From positions 1 to 44,570 of the forward strand of contig JAJZMD010000157.1 of NCBI GenBank assembly GCA_021803085.1: a DNA stretch of 44,570 nt, given 5' to 3'. The notes beneath the pieces are model-generated. The model saw only the letters and a list, made by a program, of their open reading frames with translations. It ran no database searches and had not been told where the DNA came from. This stretch comes from Actinomycetes bacterium (lineage in GTDB: Bacteria; Actinomycetota; Acidimicrobiia; Acidimicrobiales; RAAP-2). A program made the position numbers and the translations under genes. Positions 2,701 through 21,680 of this stretch are shown in pieces (positions within the stretch are counted from its first letter, which is position 1; each line of letters begins with the position of its first letter).

Positions 2701-5142
2701 TCACGCCTCCTGCGTCGGGCGTGCGCCGTTCGACGGGAGGTGCCGGCGGATCCGGCCGGCGAGGAACGGCACCAAGAGGTTGGCGGTCGCGGGCACGGCG
2801 GCTGCGAGGAGCCGCTCCCTGCGCAGCGCCGACAGGCACTCGCGCGCGCGGGCCCGGTCGCCGAGTCGGGCGAACGCGAGGGCGAATCGGAGGTGGTGCC
2901 AGGCTCGCAATTCCCGGCCACGCGGTCCTGGGAACGGGAGCAGCTCGCGGCGGACGATCTGGAGCACGGCGTCGTGATGGCGTCGCAGGTTCTTCGAGTA
3001 ACCCGTCGCCACGTCCCGGTAGGAGACGAGAGGGGCGTCGAGCTTGATGACCGGGCCGAACCGGGAGAGCCGCAACCACAGGTCCCAGTCCTCCGCACCG
3101 TCGAGCTGGGGTGAGAACCCGCGGGCCAGCGCGAAGGCGTCCCGCCGCATCAGCACGGTCGAGGTCTGGAAGCGATTGAGCACGAGCAGGTCGTCCGTCG
3201 AGATCGACGTCACCGCGAGCTCGGCCGGCAGAGGTGGCGGCCGGCCGCGAACCCAGTCGGACGCGCACAGCACCGCCCGGTGCTCCGCCAGTGCCGCGAC
3301 CTGGCGCTCCAGCTTGCCCTCCTGCCACAGGTCGTCGGCGTCGAGGAAGGCGACGAGCGGCGACGCGGCTGCCGCGACGCCGGCGTTGCGGGCAGCGGAC
3401 GGGCCGAGGCAGGGCTGCTCGACCAGCCGCACCGCCGTGCCGAACGATCGCGCGACGGCGGACGTGCCGTCGGTCGAGCCGTCGTCCACCACGATCACCT
3501 CGTCGGGACGGCGCGTCTGGCCGAGCGCCGAGGAGATGGCTGCGGGCAAGGTGTCCTCCGCGTCGTGCGCAGGGATCACCACGCTGACGCGCAGGTCGTC
3601 GGGCGACGCTCGCCGCTCCTGCCGTGCCGCCAGCGCCAGGCGCGCCGCCACCCGGTCGTCGAAGGGGACCAGGCAGTCGCCGAAGCGCTGGTGCGTCTCG
3701 TGCCCGCGGCCGCTGACGAGGAGCACGTCCCCGGGGCCGAGCGCCTCGACGCCGCGTCGGATGGCCCTCTCCCGGTTCAGCTCGACGCCGACCCGCTCGC
3801 GGCGGGCAGGGGGCACTCCGGCCAGCATCTCGCCGACGATGGTGCTGGGATCCTCCGCACCGGGGCTGTCCGTCGTGAGCACCACGTCGTCCGCCTGGCT
3901 CGCCACCCGGGCCATCTGCGGCCGCTTCGCCGCGTACCGCTCGCCGCGCGCCCCGAGGACGAGACGGACCTTCGCCGTCGACAGTTGCCGGGCCGTGTCC
4001 ACGAGGGCCTCGAGGGCGTCCGGCGTGTGCGCGTAGTCGACCACGACGAGGTACGGCTCGTCGGTGGTCACGATCTCGAAACGCCCCGGCGGCGGCGGGC
4101 AGCGCTCGAGGGCGGCCCTCGCCTGGTCCGCCTCGATCCCGAGCGCCAGGGAGACCAGGTACGCGGCGGCGACGTTCGGGGCGTTGACCGGCCCGATGAG
4201 CGGCGCGGCCAGCTCCACGCGACCGCTGCCGTCGTCGATCACCACGGTGATCCCGGCGAGACCCCTGGAGGTGCACGAGATCCGGAAGTCGGCCGGGCGG
4301 CGCGAGGAGAACGTCGTCACGGGCACTCGGCACGACGCCGCCAAACGCGCCCCCCACTCGCTGTCCACGCAGATCACCGCCTGCTCGCAGCGGGACGGGT
4401 CGAACAGTCGGCTCTTGGCGGCGAAGTACCGCTCCATCGAGCCGTGGTAGTCGAGATGCTCGGGCGAGAGGTTCAAGAAGACCCCGACGCGGAAGCGGGT
4501 GCCGTCGATCCGGTGTCGATCGAGGGCGTGCGAGGTGACTTCCACGGCCGTGCCGACCGCTCCGCCGGCGAGCATCGATGCCAGGTGGCGCTGGAGCTCA
4601 GGGGCCTCGGGAGTGGACAGCGCCGACGTGGCGAGCCGTTTGCCGCCGAGGAAGGTGCCCGTGGTGCCGATCTGCCCCGCCACCCCCGTCGAGCCGGCCA
4701 GGCACGCCTGCAGCAGCTGGCACGTCGTCGTCTTGCCGTTCGTGCCGGTCACCCCGACGACGGTCAGCTGCTCGGACGGCCAGGCGTACACGTGGGCCGC
4801 GATGGGTCCGGCGGCGGCGGCCACCGAGGGGACCCGCAGCTGGGGGACGGCGAGCTCGTCGAGGAACCGCTCGACGACGATCGCCGCGGCACCGCGGCCG
4901 ACGGCGTCGGCGGCGTAGCGGTGCCCGTCGGCATGTGCCCCGGGCACCGCGAGGAACAGGTCGCCCGGCGCGATCCGGCGGCTGTCCGCGCACACCCCCG
5001 TCACGACCGCCTCACCCCGTCGCTCGCACGTGCCCAGCTGCTCGGCAAGAGCCGACAGGGACGTCTCTGGCAGCGATGTGCGCGCCCTCGGGCGAGCGGG
5101 TCGGCCAGCGAGTCCCGTGGCCGCGGGAGTCGACCTCACCAC
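2701..5142 (-). CDS. MurE-like Mur ligase fused to a GT2 family glycosyltransferase
   Basis: One uninterrupted 813-residue frame starts with GTG at 5142 (a second GTG follows at 5139). Residues about 28-505 are a complete MurE-type ligase. They contain the ATP loop GTNGKTTT (133-140), EVTSHAL (201-207), the probable carbamylated lysine in YFAAKSRLF (K243), VVVDYAHTPDALE (367-378), the KRPQM region (406-410) and SGRGHET (477-483). Residues about 518-720 are a GT-A/GT2 domain with SVVIPAHDAEDT (520-531), DDGSTDG (553-559) and the DxD-type DADD (601-604), followed by a helical, Arg-rich C-terminus. MurE normally adds the third amino acid to UDP-MurNAc-dipeptide in the cytoplasm. Here the motif that recognises meso-diaminopimelate (DNPR) reads DSPG (425-428), so the added residue is probably different. 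The gene is not in a dcw cell-wall cluster. Nearby FkbM and GT-C-like genes suggest a surface-glycan role (inference). Confidence 0.88.
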   Translation of the reverse strand: MVRSTPAATGLAGRPARPRARTSLPETSLSALAEQLGTCERRGEAVVTGVCADSRRIAPGDLFLAVPGAHADGHRYAADAVGRGAAAIVVERFLDELAVPQLRVPSVAAAAGPIAAHVYAWPSEQLTVVGVTGTNGKTTTCQLLQACLAGSTGVAGQIGTTGTFLGGKRLATSALSTPEAPELQRHLASMLAGGAVGTAVEVTSHALDRHRIDGTRFRVGVFLNLSPEHLDYHGSMERYFAAKSRLFDPSRCEQAVICVDSEWGARLAASCRVPVTTFSSRRPADFRISCTSRGLAGITVVIDDGSGRVELAAPLIGPVNAPNVAAAYLVSLALGIEADQARAALERCPPPPGRFEIVTTDEPYLVVVDYAHTPDALEALVDTARQLSTAKVRLVLGARGERYAAKRPQMARVASQADDVVLTTDSPGAEDPSTIVGEMLAGVPPARRERVGVELNRERAIRRGVEALGPGDVLLVSGRGHETHQRFGDCLVPFDDRVAARLALAARQERRASPDDLRVSVVIPAHDAEDTLPAAISSALGQTRRPDEVIVVDDGSTDGTSAVARSFGTAVRLVEQPCLGPSAARNAGVAAAASPLVAFLDADDLWQEGKLERQVAALAEHRAVLCASDWVRGRPPPLPAELAVTSISTDDLLVLNRFQTSTVLMRRDAFALARGFSPQLDGAEDWDLWLRLSRFGPVIKLDAPLVSYRDVATGYSKNLRRHHDAVLQIVRRELLPFPGPRGRELRAWHHLRFALAFARLGDRARARECLSALRRERLLAAAVPATANLLVPFLAGRIRRHLPSNGARPTQEA

Positions 5143-17042: not shown

Positions 17043-18416
17043 ATGCCGGCAAGTTCCACTTCCGCGCGAGCGGAGCGCCCGGAGGCGGTTCGCGTCGCGC
17101 TCCTCGGCCACGGCAACGTCGGCGCGGCGGTCGCGGAGCTGCTCACCACGCGCACGGAGGAGATCGCCGCGCGTGCAGGCGTCCAATTCGAGCTCGCGGG
17201 GATCGCGGTGCGCGACCTCCGCCGGCGGCGGGAGGCCCCCGGCGCGGCAGACCCCGCGCTCTACACGGACGACGCCAAGGGCCTCGTCGAGCGCACGGAC
17301 GTCGACGTGGTCGTCGAGCTGATCGGGGGCCTCGATCCGGCTCGCACGCTGGTCGAGGCGGCGCTCCGGGCGGGCAAGCCGGTGGTCACCGCCAACAAGA
17401 TGCTCCTGGCGCAGGCGGGGGTGGAGCTCTCGGAGGTCGCGTCGGCCAACGGCGTCGATCTCCTGTACGAGGCCGCGGTGGGCGGCGCCATCCCGGTCAT
17501 CCGGCCGCTGCGCGAGTCGCTCGCGGGCGAGCGTGTGCTGCGCGTGATGGGGATCGTGAACGGGACGACCAACTACATCCTCACCCGGATGACCGACGAC
17601 GGCATGGACTACGCGGAGGCGCTCGCCGAGGCGCAGGAGCTCGGCCTGGCCGAGCGGGACCCGTCGTCGGACGTGTCGGGCGCCGACGCCGCCGCGAAGG
17701 CGGCGATCCTCGCAGGTCTCGCCTTCGGCAGCGACGTGCTCGGGACGACGGTGGCGCGCGAGGGGATCACCGGCATCCGGTCGCTGGACGTGGAGCACGC
17801 GGCCCGGCTCGGCTACGTCATCAAGCTGCTGGCGATCGCGGAGCTGGTCGACGACGGCCCCGACGTGTCGGTGCGCGTCCATCCTGCGATGGTGCCGGCC
17901 GACCACCCGCTCGCCTCGGTGCGGGGCGCGTTCAACGCCGTTTTCGTGGAGGGCGAGTCTGCGGGCGAGCTCATGCTCTACGGCAGGGGAGCGGGCGGCG
18001 CACCCACCGCGAGCGCCGTGCTCGGAGACCTGATCGACGCCGCGCGGAACCTGCGGGCCGGGGCGCACGCTCCCGCCCCGCGCCGCCACCAGGCCGCCGT
18101 ACGTCCGGTCGACGACCTGCGATCGGCCTTCTACATCAGCCTCGACGTGGTGGACCGTCCCGGGGTGCTCGCGTCGGTCGCGACCGCGTTCGGCACCCAC
18201 GGGGTGTCGATCAGGGCGATGGAGCAGGACGGGCTCGGCACCGCGGCGCGGCTCGTCTTCCTCACGCACTCCGCACGCGAGGGGGACGTGCGGGCGACGC
18301 TGGACGCGCTGGCAGCGATCGACACGGTGGTGCGCGTCGGCTCCGTGCTGCGCGTGATCGGGGCCGACGACGGCGCCCCGATGCGCGTCGCCGGCGGGCA
18401 CGCACGGAGGCGCTGA
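17043..18416 (+). CDS. hom: Homoserine dehydrogenase
   Basis: The protein is 457 residues, typical of the long ACT-containing form. The Rossmann motif is GHGNVG (22-27). The catalytic domain shows [23 protein letters not shown] and [12 protein letters not shown], which bind aspartate semialdehyde and NAD(P). The C-terminal ACT domain (about 360-435, [28 protein letters not shown]) mediates feedback inhibition by threonine in relatives. It reduces aspartate 4-semialdehyde to homoserine, the branch point to threonine and methionine, in the cytoplasm. A -10 box 7 nt before the ATG suggests a leaderless start. thrC follows after 1 bp, so the two form an operon. The gene is divergent from padR. 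Confidence 0.96.
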
Positions 18417-18417
18417 C

Positions 18418-19467
18418 GTGCCGGTCGGCGCCGCCTGGCGCGGCGTCATCGAGGAGTACCGCGAGCTGCTGCCGGTGGACGACGGCACGTCCGTCGTGAC
18501 CCTGCTCGAGGGCGGCACCCCCCTCGTCCCGGCCCCGCGGCTCTCGGCTCGCGTCGGGGCATCGGTGTGGTTGAAGGTCGAGGGGGCCAACCCGACCGGG
18601 TCGTTCAAGGACCGCGGGATGACGCTCGCGATCTCGAAGGCCCTCGCCGAGGGCGCGAAGGCCGTCGTGTGCGCGTCGACGGGCAACACCTCGGCGTCGG
18701 CCGCCGCCTACGCGGCCCGCTCCGGGCTCGACTGCGTCGTCCTCATCCCCGAGGGCTACATCGCCCTGGGCAAGCTCGCGCAGGCCCTCGTCCACGGCGC
18801 CCGCGTCCTGCAGGTGCGCGGCAACTTCGACGACGCGCTCGCGGTCGTGCGCGAGCTCCCGAACAAGGTTCCGGTCACCGTCGTCAACTCGGTCAACCCG
18901 TACCGCCTCGAAGGCCAGAAGACGGCGGCCTTCGAGATCGTCGACGTGCTGGGCCGCGCCCCCGACGTGCAGTGCATGCCGGTCGGGAACGCCGGCAACA
19001 TCACGGCGTACTGGCGCGGGTACCTCGAGTACCGGGCGGCCGGACGGTCGCCCAACGTGCCGAGGCTCCTCGGCTTCCAGGCGGAGGGCGCCGCGCCGAT
19101 CGTCCTCGGCCATCCGGTGGAGCACCCCGAGACGATCGCGACCGCCATCAGGATCGGGAACCCCGCGAGCTGGTACGCCGCGACCGCGGCGGCAGCCGAG
19201 TCCGGGGGAGCGGTGCGCGCGGTGAGCGACGCAGAGATCCTCGATGCCTACCGCATGCTCGCCAGCGAGGAGGCGGTGTTCTGCGAGGCGGCCTCCGCGG
19301 CGGCGGTGGCGGGCATGCTGAAGAGCGAGATCCCACCCGGCTCCACGGTGGTGTGCGTGCTCACCGGCCACGGGTTGAAGGACCCGGACCTTGCGATCAG
19401 CCAGATCTCCGTGCCCTCGGTGGTCGACGCGGACCTCGACGCGGTCCTCGAAGCGCTCGGGCTCTGA
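18418..19467 (+). CDS. thrC: Threonine synthase
   Basis: This 349-residue PLP enzyme of the short actinobacterial type starts with GTG 1 bp after the hom stop. The Schiff-base lysine is K64 in [31 protein letters not shown] follows the family pattern, and the phosphate loop is [15 protein letters not shown]. It converts O-phosphohomoserine to threonine. The usual next gene, thrB, which makes that substrate, is missing. The 434 bp downstream hold no gene, and rho follows. Confidence 0.96.
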
Positions 19468-19901
19468 CGGCCCCGCACACAGCCCCGACGCGGACCGTAG
19501 GGGAGCGAGCGGCCGAGCGGGCGGCCGGGTGGGGGAATGGGCACCGAGCGAACTGGGAATGAACGGGGCGCACGGGATGTTGTCTCGATTCGCACGAGGG
19601 AGCGGGCGACGCCGCAGCCCTGACAGCCCCAGCCCTGACAGCCGCCACGCCTGCGCCCGCCGCCCGCTTCGTCCAAAGCGTGCCGGGGTGTTTGCCGAGA
19701 CCGCGGACAGCCGCTACGATGGGTGCATCCCACCGGGCAACGGCGCTCAGGGCGGCGGCCCGAAGACCGGTCCTTACCTGTGACGCCACCGGTGGTACGC
19801 GGGAGCAGGAGGCGCGGGGCGCTCGTCCTTCACCCGTGTTCCGTCCTCGCGCGGCGTGGCCTCGCCACGACTCGCGCGACCCGTCATGAGATAGGAGACC
19901 G
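19468..19901. other. Gene-free region between thrC and rho
   Basis: No gene is convincing here, and homoserine kinase (thrB), expected at this place in actinobacteria, is not present. The region holds an imperfect tandem repeat with a 15-bp period (cagccctgacagcc at 19615 and 19630), the rho promoter, and a palindrome CCACCGGTGG at 19786-19795 in the probable rho leader. Confidence 0.65.
19692..19720 (+). promoter_or_regulatory. Probable rho promoter (TTGCCG-N17-TACGAT)
   Basis: TTGCCG at 19692-19697 and TACGAT at 19715-19720 are separated by the ideal 17 nt. This is the best housekeeping-type promoter in the window. It would give the rho mRNA an untranslated leader of about 175 nt. Long leaders are common for rho, where they serve autoregulation. 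Confidence 0.55.
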
Positions 19902-21680
19902 ATGACTGCGGAAGAGCAGCTCGAACGGTCGGTGCTCGAGGGCAAGGAGCGTGACGAGCTCCATGCGATCGCGCAGGCGATGTCGCTCAAGACGACGTCG
20001 CGTACGAAGAAGTCCGACATCATCGACCGCATCCTGGAGGCGGCCGGCGTGACCTCGTCGAACGGGACGAACGGGCACGCCGCCGGCGCCTCGGAGGCGG
20101 CCACGTCGACCAACGGGGCGACCCACGGGCCCCAGCGTGCCGCGGCGGCGTCGAGGGCGAAGACGGAGCCCGAGCCGGCGTCCGCCGCCGGTGACGCGGC
20201 GGCCGACGACCGTGCAGCCGGCGGGTCCGGCGCCGCGGCGGCCGCGAGCGGCGCGCACGCCGGCGCCGAGGTCGCCGCCTTCGAGACCCTGCCCGTGACC
20301 GTGCCCGTCGAGACCGTGCCCGTCGAGACCGTGCCCGTCGAAGTCCCTCAGACTCACGAGGGGGGCACGACCAACGGCGCCGGGCGTCAGAGCCAGCGCC
20401 AGCAGGGCCGCTACTCCCAGGCGGCCAACGTCGAGCCAGGCAACCGCCGGAACCGGCGCCGTCGCGGCCGCGAGCGCGGCCAGGTTGGCGGCGAGCGCGA
20501 CCTGCAGGGCGTGGCGAGCCAGGACGCGCCCTACCAGGGCGAGCTCGTCGAGGTGCGCGGGCTCCTCGACCTGCGCGACGAGGGCTACGGCTTCCTGCGC
20601 TGCGACGGGTACCTGCCGTCGCCGAAGGACGTGTACGTGTCGATCAGCCAGGCGCGCCGGTTCGCGTTGAGAAAGGGCGACTACGTCGAGGGTGCCTGCA
20701 GGCCCGCGTCGACCAGCGAGAAGTACCCGGCGCTCCTGCGCATCGACACGGTGTCGGGCCTGGACTCCGAGGCGGCCCGCCAGCGGCCGCGGTTCGAGGA
20801 CCTCACCCCGCTGTTCCCCGACGACAAGCTGTCGCTCGAGCTGCCCGGGGCGAAGGACAACGTGACGGCGAGGATCGTCGACCTCCTCTCTCCGATCGGG
20901 AAGGGCCAGCGCGGGCTCATCGTGTCGCCCCCGAAGGCCGGCAAGACGACCGTCATGAAGCAGATTGCGCACTCCATCGAGGCGAACAACCCCGAGGTGC
21001 ACCTCATGGTGCTGCTCGTGGACGAGCGTCCCGAAGAGGTGACCGACATGCGGCGGTCGGTGAAGGGCGAGGTCGTGGCGTCCACGTTCGACCGACCCTC
21101 CGACGAGCACACCGCCGTTGCGGAGCTCGCGATCGAGCGAGCGAAGCGGCTCGTCGAGCTGGGCCGCGACGTCGTCATCATCCTCGACGGCATCACCCGT
21201 CTCGCCCGTGCGTACAACCTCGCGCAGCCGGCGACCGGCCGGATCATGTCGGGCGGCGTGGACTCCGGGGCGCTCTACCCGCCGAAGAAGTTCTTCGGCG
21301 CCGCGCGCAACATCGAAGAGGGCGGATCGCTCACGATCCTCGCCACCGCGCTCGTCGAGACCGGGTCGAAGATGGACGAGGTCATCTTCGAGGAGTTCAA
21401 GGGGACCGGCAACATGGAGCTGCGCCTGGACCGCCGGCTCGCCGAACGGCGGCTCTACCCTTCGATCGACGTGAACGCGAGCTCGACCCGCCACGAGGAG
21501 CTCCTCTTCGACCGCGGCCAGTTGCAGCAGGTGTGGAAGCTCCGGCGGGTGCTGAACGCGCTGGCGAGCGAAGGGAACGCCGCCGCCGGGCTCGAGCTGC
21601 TGATGGACAAGCTGCGCACGACCAAGAGCAACGACGAGTTCCTCGCAGAGATCGCCAAGGGCCCGACCCCAGGCGGCTGA
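19902..21680 (+). CDS. rho: Transcription termination factor Rho
   Basis: The protein is 592 residues with TAGGAGA before the ATG. Domains in order are: Rho_N helical part (about 1-50); a low-complexity Ala/Gly/Thr linker (51-180) with a VPVET tandem repeat (15-bp period at DNA level from 20301); an Arg-rich patch [13 protein letters not shown] (181-193); the cold-shock-like RNA-binding domain (about 213-285, [20 protein letters not shown]); and the hexameric ATPase with Walker A PPKAGKTT (343-350), [10 protein letters not shown] and the conserved [14 protein letters not shown]. The Arg-rich insert is typical of actinobacterial Rho and raises RNA affinity in relatives. It ends transcription by translocating along RNA. 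rpmE follows after 52 bp. Confidence 0.97.

Follow-up and report, generated by a model that had tools for sequence, protein, structure and literature searches.

The window analysed here, a stretch of 44,570 nucleotides that forms contig C40 of a 4.25 Mb draft genome in 296 contigs from an uncultured actinobacterium of the Acidimicrobiia, carries a gene in which a MurE-type ligase, hereafter MurE2, is fused in frame to a family 2 glycosyltransferase (GT2). The MurE2-GT2 pairing, which recurs in distant bacteria, suggests a side branch, so far undescribed, in the making of cell-wall precursors. Peptidoglycan precursors are generally held to be made by one linear route per cell, in which MurE fixes the third residue. 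Our preferred reading, to which we give slightly less than an even chance, is that the pair works as a two-step enzyme in such a branch, parallel to the normal pathway. The ligase half, still active as a Mur ligase, would join to UDP-N-acetylmuramic acid (UDP-MurNAc)-L-Ala-D-Glu, or to a close relative, some third residue that is not diaminopimelate (DAP), and the GT2 half, an inverting enzyme, would then put a sugar on the resulting muramyl peptide, as a UDP-linked or lipid-linked precursor. As judged from sequence, both halves are very probably active, the substrate is probably a muramyl dipeptide, and the third residue seems rather likely to differ from DAP; that the GT2 acts on the product of the ligase is an evenly balanced proposition. 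In Streptomycetaceae, a dedicated MurF and a dedicated MurJ, both of which have to accept the changed stem, would serve the altered precursor.

The gene is a minus-strand frame of 813 codons at 2704-5142, with a GTG start at 5142 and a stop at 2701-2703, and comprises the following features.

2701..5142, minus strand: MurE2-GT2 fusion gene, 813 codons (GTG start) and stop.
3613..5028, minus strand: MurE-type ligase half, residues 39-510, matched by TIGR01085 and NF001126.
4726..4746, minus strand: ATP loop GTNGKTT, residues 133-139, recognized by motif.
4600..4620, minus strand: LSTPEAP, signature 1, with Leu where most comparison MurEs carry Arg (RTTPE), from alignment.
4444..4467, minus strand: SPEHLDYH, signature 2, with Glu where comparison MurEs carry Asp (DHLD), from alignment.
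4402..4422, minus strand: AAKSRLF, in which K243 is the carbamoylated-lysine position, placed by motif.
3946..3948, minus strand: Arg399, signature 3 and hallmark of MurE2, a Gly to Arg change in GCGGDRD (GARGERY in the window), from alignment.
3859..3870, minus strand: DSPG in place of DNPR, residues 425-428, from alignment.
3697..3711, minus strand: GRGHE in place of GKGHE, signature 4, residues 478-482, from alignment.
3592..3630, minus strand: short junction between ligase and GT2, about residues 505-517, from sequence comparison.
2743..3594, minus strand: GT2 half, residues 517-800 (PF00535, 109 bits; 58 invariant columns among 23 chosen homologues).
3331..3342, minus strand: DADD, residues 601-604, found by motif and presumably the metal/nucleotide-sugar motif of GT2.
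3154..3180, minus strand: LNRFQTSTV, a motif of the GT2 group, which relatives lacking an adjoining MurE2 share, from alignment.
3076..3093, minus strand: EDWDLW, residues 684-689, found by motif and taken here to be the catalytic-base motif of inverting GT2s.

That one 813-residue frame holds a full Mur ligase and a complete GT2, as stated in a preliminary description of this DNA that gave no strand, was borne out by Pfam, by TIGR01085 and by the motifs. All four Pfam domains scored above gathering (Mur_ligase, 34.4 bits; Mur_ligase_M, 138.5; Mur_ligase_C, 91.0; Glycos_transf_2, 109, the gathering score of PF00535 being 23.3). The ligase reached 419.3 bits with the murE model TIGR01085 (cut-off 257.3) and 411.2 bits with the DAP-ligase equivalog NF001126 (cut-off 373), so that annotation by the latter would call the protein a DAP ligase. 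It stayed below the cut-offs of the model for L-Lys-adding MurE (NF010628, 267.7 bits vs. 536) and of that for MurE-MurF fusions (NF008896, 415.6 bits vs. 1023, with a match confined to profile positions 14-525 of 965). When aligned with 17 comparison rows, the ligase showed the ATP loop, carbamoylated-lysine site, HLD and UDP-MurNAc motifs of MurE, the exceptions being Asp to Glu in DHLD and the Leu before TTP; a role of the carbamoylated lysine is described for MurE (PMC9434261). Membership of the GT2 half in its family is indicated by its PF00535 score, a DxD motif (DADD) and an ED catalytic base (EDWD), and its scores with the TuaG, EpsD and MftF equivalogs all fall under their cut-offs (68.0, 75.9 and 74.7 bits vs. 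400, 370 and 280, respectively). Both halves are under purifying selection, with ratios of non-synonymous to synonymous substitution (dN/dS, NG86 method) of 0.17-0.28 for MurE and 0.24-0.30 for GT2 in comparisons with G009, G008 and L051.

A profile search of the source genome found two MurE proteins over the family cut-off, the window copy and one encoded at C285:49477-50832, which reads GCGGDRD, TSDNPRHEDP and GKGHE, scores 445.3 bits with TIGR01085 and sits between genes identified by eye as ftsI and mraY, i.e., in the dcw cluster. The window copy, which lies outside dcw between Kelch and FkbM genes and is 43% identical to the dcw protein, is thus a second MurE, and the possibility that it is the sole and essential one was rejected, since the C285 protein exceeds the cut-off. 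The preliminary description had raised both the existence of a canonical murE with DNPR in dcw and its absence, and it is the former that was found. At least one further full-length MurE match beyond MurE2 was present in 10 of 10 genomes reached through homologous loci, motifs having been read for part of them.

Proteins with the same domain order are encoded in eight genomes including the source, seven of them with an intact GT2 half; their identity to the window protein is 96% (G008), 93% (G009), 75-76% (L051), 66% (L053) or 53-54% (G032, G044, and L054). The reading frame runs through the junction (about residues 505-518) in all eight genomes, leaving no sign of the stop or frameshift between the domains envisaged earlier. 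Frameshift, chance and assembly artefact were rejected as explanations in view of the eight fused genomes and of dN/dS values of at most 0.30. The fused rows cluster together in the MurE tree, with no unfused row among them (Shimodaira-Hasegawa-like approximate likelihood-ratio test, 95), and for the next row outside this group (L155, G335) coordinates place MurE2 and GT2 in different frames; the fusion is likely of single origin.

Elsewhere, MurE2 and GT2 are unfused and adjacent, with some genes that overlap (by 4-22 bases in L137, L138, and L139), converge (L141, in G092) or diverge (L145, in G091; L211, in G343). The pairing is conserved in Actinomycetota and Bacillota, and the functional link between ligase and GT2 proposed in the preliminary description is thereby upheld. 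Among 100 relatives, 17 carry a MurE2 of the type that has Arg in the GCGG motif, and 16 of these also have a GT2 match scoring 180 bits or more; in the other 83, no GT2 match exceeded 112 bits among up to 10 candidates scored per genome (two genomes of this sample gave no match of any kind, some assemblies are far from complete, and reading of the signature covered the best 30 loci). Of the 154 genomes in the Sulfobacillus class, 25 have a MurE2 match of 436 bits or more and 26 a GT2 match of 285 bits or more; strong matches to both occur in 24, in all of which the two genes are adjacent, the thresholds having been chosen after viewing the score gap. G720 has a MurE2 and no GT2 among the matches listed, in G714 and G715 the contig ends just where the region upstream of the GT2 would lie, and a MurE2-like fragment of G717 (254 codons, 59%) was left out of the counts; 17 further genomes of the class have weaker GT2 matches, below 260 bits. 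In two members of this class (L192 and L195, in G728 and G731), the pair lies between two ribosomal RNA operons, which may explain why draft contigs end about 180 bases after the GT2, and in another draft a NamZ exo-muramidase gene (L085:165-1304) adjoins the pair. Few neighbors recur outside Streptomycetaceae, and these are mostly of broad families such as the short-chain dehydrogenases, found in five MurE2/GT2 loci. On the GT2 side, DADD and EDWD are invariant among the 23 chosen homologues; more distant GT2s beside Arg-type MurE2s (L151, L153, and L154) have DGDD or DDDD for DADD and keep EDW, and the family motif of the L153 protein reads MNQFQTSTV.

Four positions in the ligase set MurE2 apart. 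Arg in GxRG occurs in 12 of 12 and 18 of 18 rows of the two MurE2 groups and in none of 22 comparison rows; for Arg in GRGxE the figures are 12/12, 18/18 and 2/22, for Glu in EHLD 12/12, 18/18 and 1/22, and for Leu before TTP 12/12, 15/18 and 2/22. In a wider collection, 220 MurE-like proteins (more than 400 residues, no stops) gave 162 after removal of identical cores and 138 clusters at 97%; many loci had been retrieved through GT2 or MurE2 searches, so that the cluster counts represent non-random samples. Arg stands at the third position of GCGG in 57 of the 138 clusters, 49 of which have a GT2 within 5 kb, and no GT2 lies within 5 kb in the DNA retrieved for the 81 non-Arg clusters, many of these loci being short. 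The eight Arg-type clusters without a near GT2 comprise four close to contig ends with the GT2 on another contig (L024, L025, L035, and L209), one with a gap of about 5 kb (L207), one with a decayed GT2 (L054) and two for which none was found (G095 and G720). Second MurEs of G748 and G749, genomes with no GT2 among the matches listed, lack the Arg; they are of another type (L282 and L280, respectively), with GSAGQRD or GSAGHRD, YTTPE and EHLD. An odd MurE of Rhodococcus sp. CH91 (L102:8001-9353) reads SATGERD, DSPY and GRGCE, and no GT2 was found near it.

These columns bear on the proposal that MurE2 is a back-up or inhibitor-tolerant MurE with the ordinary reaction, adding DAP or Lys, and that its partnership with GT2 serves co-regulation only. 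The high scores with MurE models and the DNPR motif retained in three Arg-type copies are in keeping with it, but four active-site or near-site columns are common to both MurE2 groups, and fusion in one group is accompanied by linkage in several arrangements across two phyla, which makes this proposal quite unlikely.

As to the pocket, in E. coli MurE R389 binds the L-center carboxylate of DAP, D413, N414, G464, and E468 bind the D-center, R416 contacts both DAP carboxylates and the NTT158 region binds UDP-MurNAc (PMC9434261). In alignment with the M. tuberculosis and T. maritima enzymes, the window protein retains the equivalents of R389, D413, G464, and E468 and lacks that of R416, the E. 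coli numbers of these equivalents being our own count from DNPR as 413-416. In MurE2s generally, the DNPR position mostly reads D(S/N)P followed by G, Y, N, H, K, or C. The S. aureus enzyme has DNPA, also without the Arg, and its Asp-406 and Glu-460 bind Lys by the amine of its side chain (PMC3829189). Since the first four positions are kept and R416 is lost, a first guess would be that the third residue carries an amino group on its side chain but lacks a distal carboxylate, as do Lys, Orn or similar. The new Arg399 lies three residues before the R389 position and could bind something else in the pocket. The change from DNPR to DSPG, on which the preliminary description had built its case for altered specificity, keeps part of its weight: loss of this Arg is common in the family but no hallmark of it. 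Because three Arg-type copies retain DNPR, it is the Arg of GxRG that is the constant hallmark of MurE2, and loss of DNPR is a frequent addition.

The order of the two steps could also be the reverse, with the GT2 making a glycosylated amino acid or an altered UDP-muramyl substrate for MurE2. Fusion leaves the order unset, and the Leu shared by MurE2s directly before TTP falls in the region of E. coli NTT158, which binds UDP-MurNAc; however, MurE precedes GT2 both in the fusion and in those separate pairs observed to be collinear, which is weak evidence of order, and we regard a first step by GT2 as very unlikely.

The placing of the MurE2-GT2 pair in precursor synthesis draws on the Streptomycetaceae, in which the GT2 was found in 11 of 249 sampled genomes and its surroundings inspected in 10 (the eleventh, G515, was left out). 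All nine fetched single-contig loci (L200-L208) have the order MurE2, MurJ, GT2, MurF, with the GT2 gene reversed relative to MurE2 and MurJ; MurF is inverted in L206, about 5 kb separate GT2 and MurJ in L207, and the MurE2 of G573 (L203:12200-13758) is in two overlapping frames, by frameshift or sequence error. In G369 the cassette is split over two contigs, with MurE2 and MurJ on one (L209) and GT2 and MurF on the other (L114). The L117 proteins exceed the cut-offs for MurF (TIGR01143, 392 bits vs. 288.6) and MurJ (TIGR01695, 258.7 vs. 235.55). A further MurF over the cut-off is encoded elsewhere in five of five cassette genomes searched, and MurC, MurD, MraY, and MurG are absent from the four-gene cassette. 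MurF acts on the tripeptide, and MurJ flips the finished precursor. Because the further enzymes of the cassette are MurF and MurJ, the stem is the indicated target; because, in addition, MurE2 keeps the MurE substrate motifs, we infer that the substrate class, earlier given as a sugar-nucleotide or lipid-linked glycan, may be narrowed to muramyl-peptide precursors. A bolder form of this idea, a second, parallel lipid II pathway in two phyla, in which a dedicated MurE with a different third residue and a dedicated GT2, joined in Streptomycetaceae by dedicated MurF and MurJ for completion and export, would yield a second precursor with a glycosylated stem or some other sugar modification, is possible but doubtful.

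At E 1e-35 the GT2 was matched in 7 of 296 genomes of the window's own class and at E 1e-40 in 3 of 396 sampled over its phylum (own genome counted in both); in the Sulfobacillus phylum the figure was 4 of 398 at E 1e-50. With so few matches per sample, the trait is patchy. This spread, together with the 11 of 249 Streptomycetaceae, is what might be expected if the pair made a secondary metabolite or surface glycan through a muramyl- or other sugar-peptide intermediate, leaving peptidoglycan unaltered, with MurJ exporting the product in Streptomycetaceae. Three of five cassettes on contigs longer than 7 Mb lie less than 0.5 Mb from a contig end, and a GT2 relative without neighboring MurE2 (L199) adjoins a polysaccharide deacetylase gene, which would also suit such a role. 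On the other hand, no other gene family occurs in more than 3 of the 11 Streptomycetaceae loci, recurring neighbors elsewhere are few, and MurE2 retains most motifs of the UDP-MurNAc site, so that a metabolite or glycan pathway appears unlikely. The surface-glycan locus of the preliminary description, composed with the adjoining FkbM methyltransferase and GT-C-like (GT87) genes, did not hold up: these genes occur in only 2 of 48 MurE2/GT2 loci (tblastn), both of the same genus, and they were rejected as parts of the system, as was the Kelch gene.

An 84-row quick MurE tree separated the actinobacterial and Sulfobacillus-class MurE2s into two groups. With 52 rows and all columns, constraining both to one clade was not rejected (approximately unbiased test, p-AU 0.52); with the signature columns dropped, a choice made after the fact and biased against one clade, it was weakly rejected (p 0.035). 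It may even be that resident MurEs were recruited as MurE2 independently in Bacillota and Actinomycetota, with convergence on the same active-site changes. Phage or plasmid origin was rejected: a search of 50,697 phage records with the window GT2 (E 1e-15) and one of 72,556 plasmid records with the Kitasatospora GT2 (E 1e-40) gave no match.

Several observations weigh against a general two-step branch with a residue other than DAP. Four of the 17 Sulfobacillus-class genomes with a weaker GT2, here on another contig (G666, G668, G669, and G671), all have a second MurE that reads GGRGERD; three of these four keep DNPR and GKGGE, only G666 having DSPG and GRGQE. As three Arg-type MurEs thus retain DNPR, the non-DAP residue is uncertain family-wide; the DAP-ligase model NF001126 also accepts MurE2, and the Lys-ligase model rejects it. 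The GT2 is not always needed, given that the draft genomes G095 and G720 have a MurE2 and no detected GT2, and that the fused copy at L054:5721-7847 has a truncated GT2 half devoid of DADD, EDWD, and LNRFQTSTV next to a MurE half that keeps its motifs. Conversely, some GT2 relatives carry the LNRFQTST motif but have no adjoining MurE2. Finally, the source genome has one MurJ and no MurF over the cut-off, hence no dedicated MurF or MurJ, and the full cassette is therefore not general.

Set beside known systems, MurE2 shares with canonical MurE (TIGR01085/NF001126) the three Mur domains, ATP loop, carbamoylated-lysine site and most UDP-MurNAc motifs, but it lies outside dcw, is fused to a GT2 and carries the Arg in GCGG, DSPG, GRGHE, EHLD and LSTP. 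With L-Lys-adding MurE it has in common the absence of the R416 equivalent, as in the DNPA of S. aureus (PMC3829189), and with the L/D-Lys ligase MurE of T. maritima (4bub) the GRGHE motif; it nevertheless fails NF010628, and its extra Arg is absent from the T. maritima sequence. MurE-MurF fusions (NF008896/PRK11929; PDB 8f5d) likewise join a Mur ligase to another precursor enzyme, which there is a second Mur ligase and here a glycosyltransferase. The GT2 catalytic core is that of TuaG, EpsD and MftF-like GT2s, GalT1 (5hea) and chondroitin synthase (2z87), from which the window GT2 differs by the LNRFQTSTV motif, a C-terminal WHHLRF...PFL tail and its MurE2 partner, as it does from the first three by scores of 68.0-75.9 bits against cut-offs of 280-400. 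No description of a MurE-GT2 pair was found among the titles and abstracts listed in searches of the open PubMed Central literature, subscription papers being outside the scope of that search.

Other Mur genes of the source genome show features of their own. Its only MurF-like protein is divergent (about 192-193.6 bits vs. a cut-off of 288.6) and carries a long hydrophobic region at its N terminus; its gene (L010:4884-7001, contig C20) lies outside dcw beside one read as a D-Ala-D-Ala ligase gene, and G009, G032, and G091 score similarly. On contig C295 (L011:4816-7627), a murD over the cut-off (253.6 bits) adjoins a gene for a MurL-like epimerase (NF041275, 328.9 bits, below the cut-off of 700), the two possibly forming a route that adds L-Glu and then epimerizes it. 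A Mur-ligase match at C129:9008-9349, on the minus strand, looks MurT-like by sequence. In the window itself, homoserine dehydrogenase, threonine synthase and rho genes occupy 17043-21680, about 12-17 kb from the fusion gene, and their relatives lie near MurE2/GT2 in G091 (L145:706-4899); this proximity may be ordinary gene order, and homoserine as the third residue is not relied upon.

If the proposed side branch is real, some cells would make two kinds of peptidoglycan precursor, one of them sugar-modified, and the NCBIfam model for DAP ligases accepts MurE2 despite its lost specificity motif. Since named Kitasatospora strains bear the cassette (L114 and L117), the question is open to direct testing.

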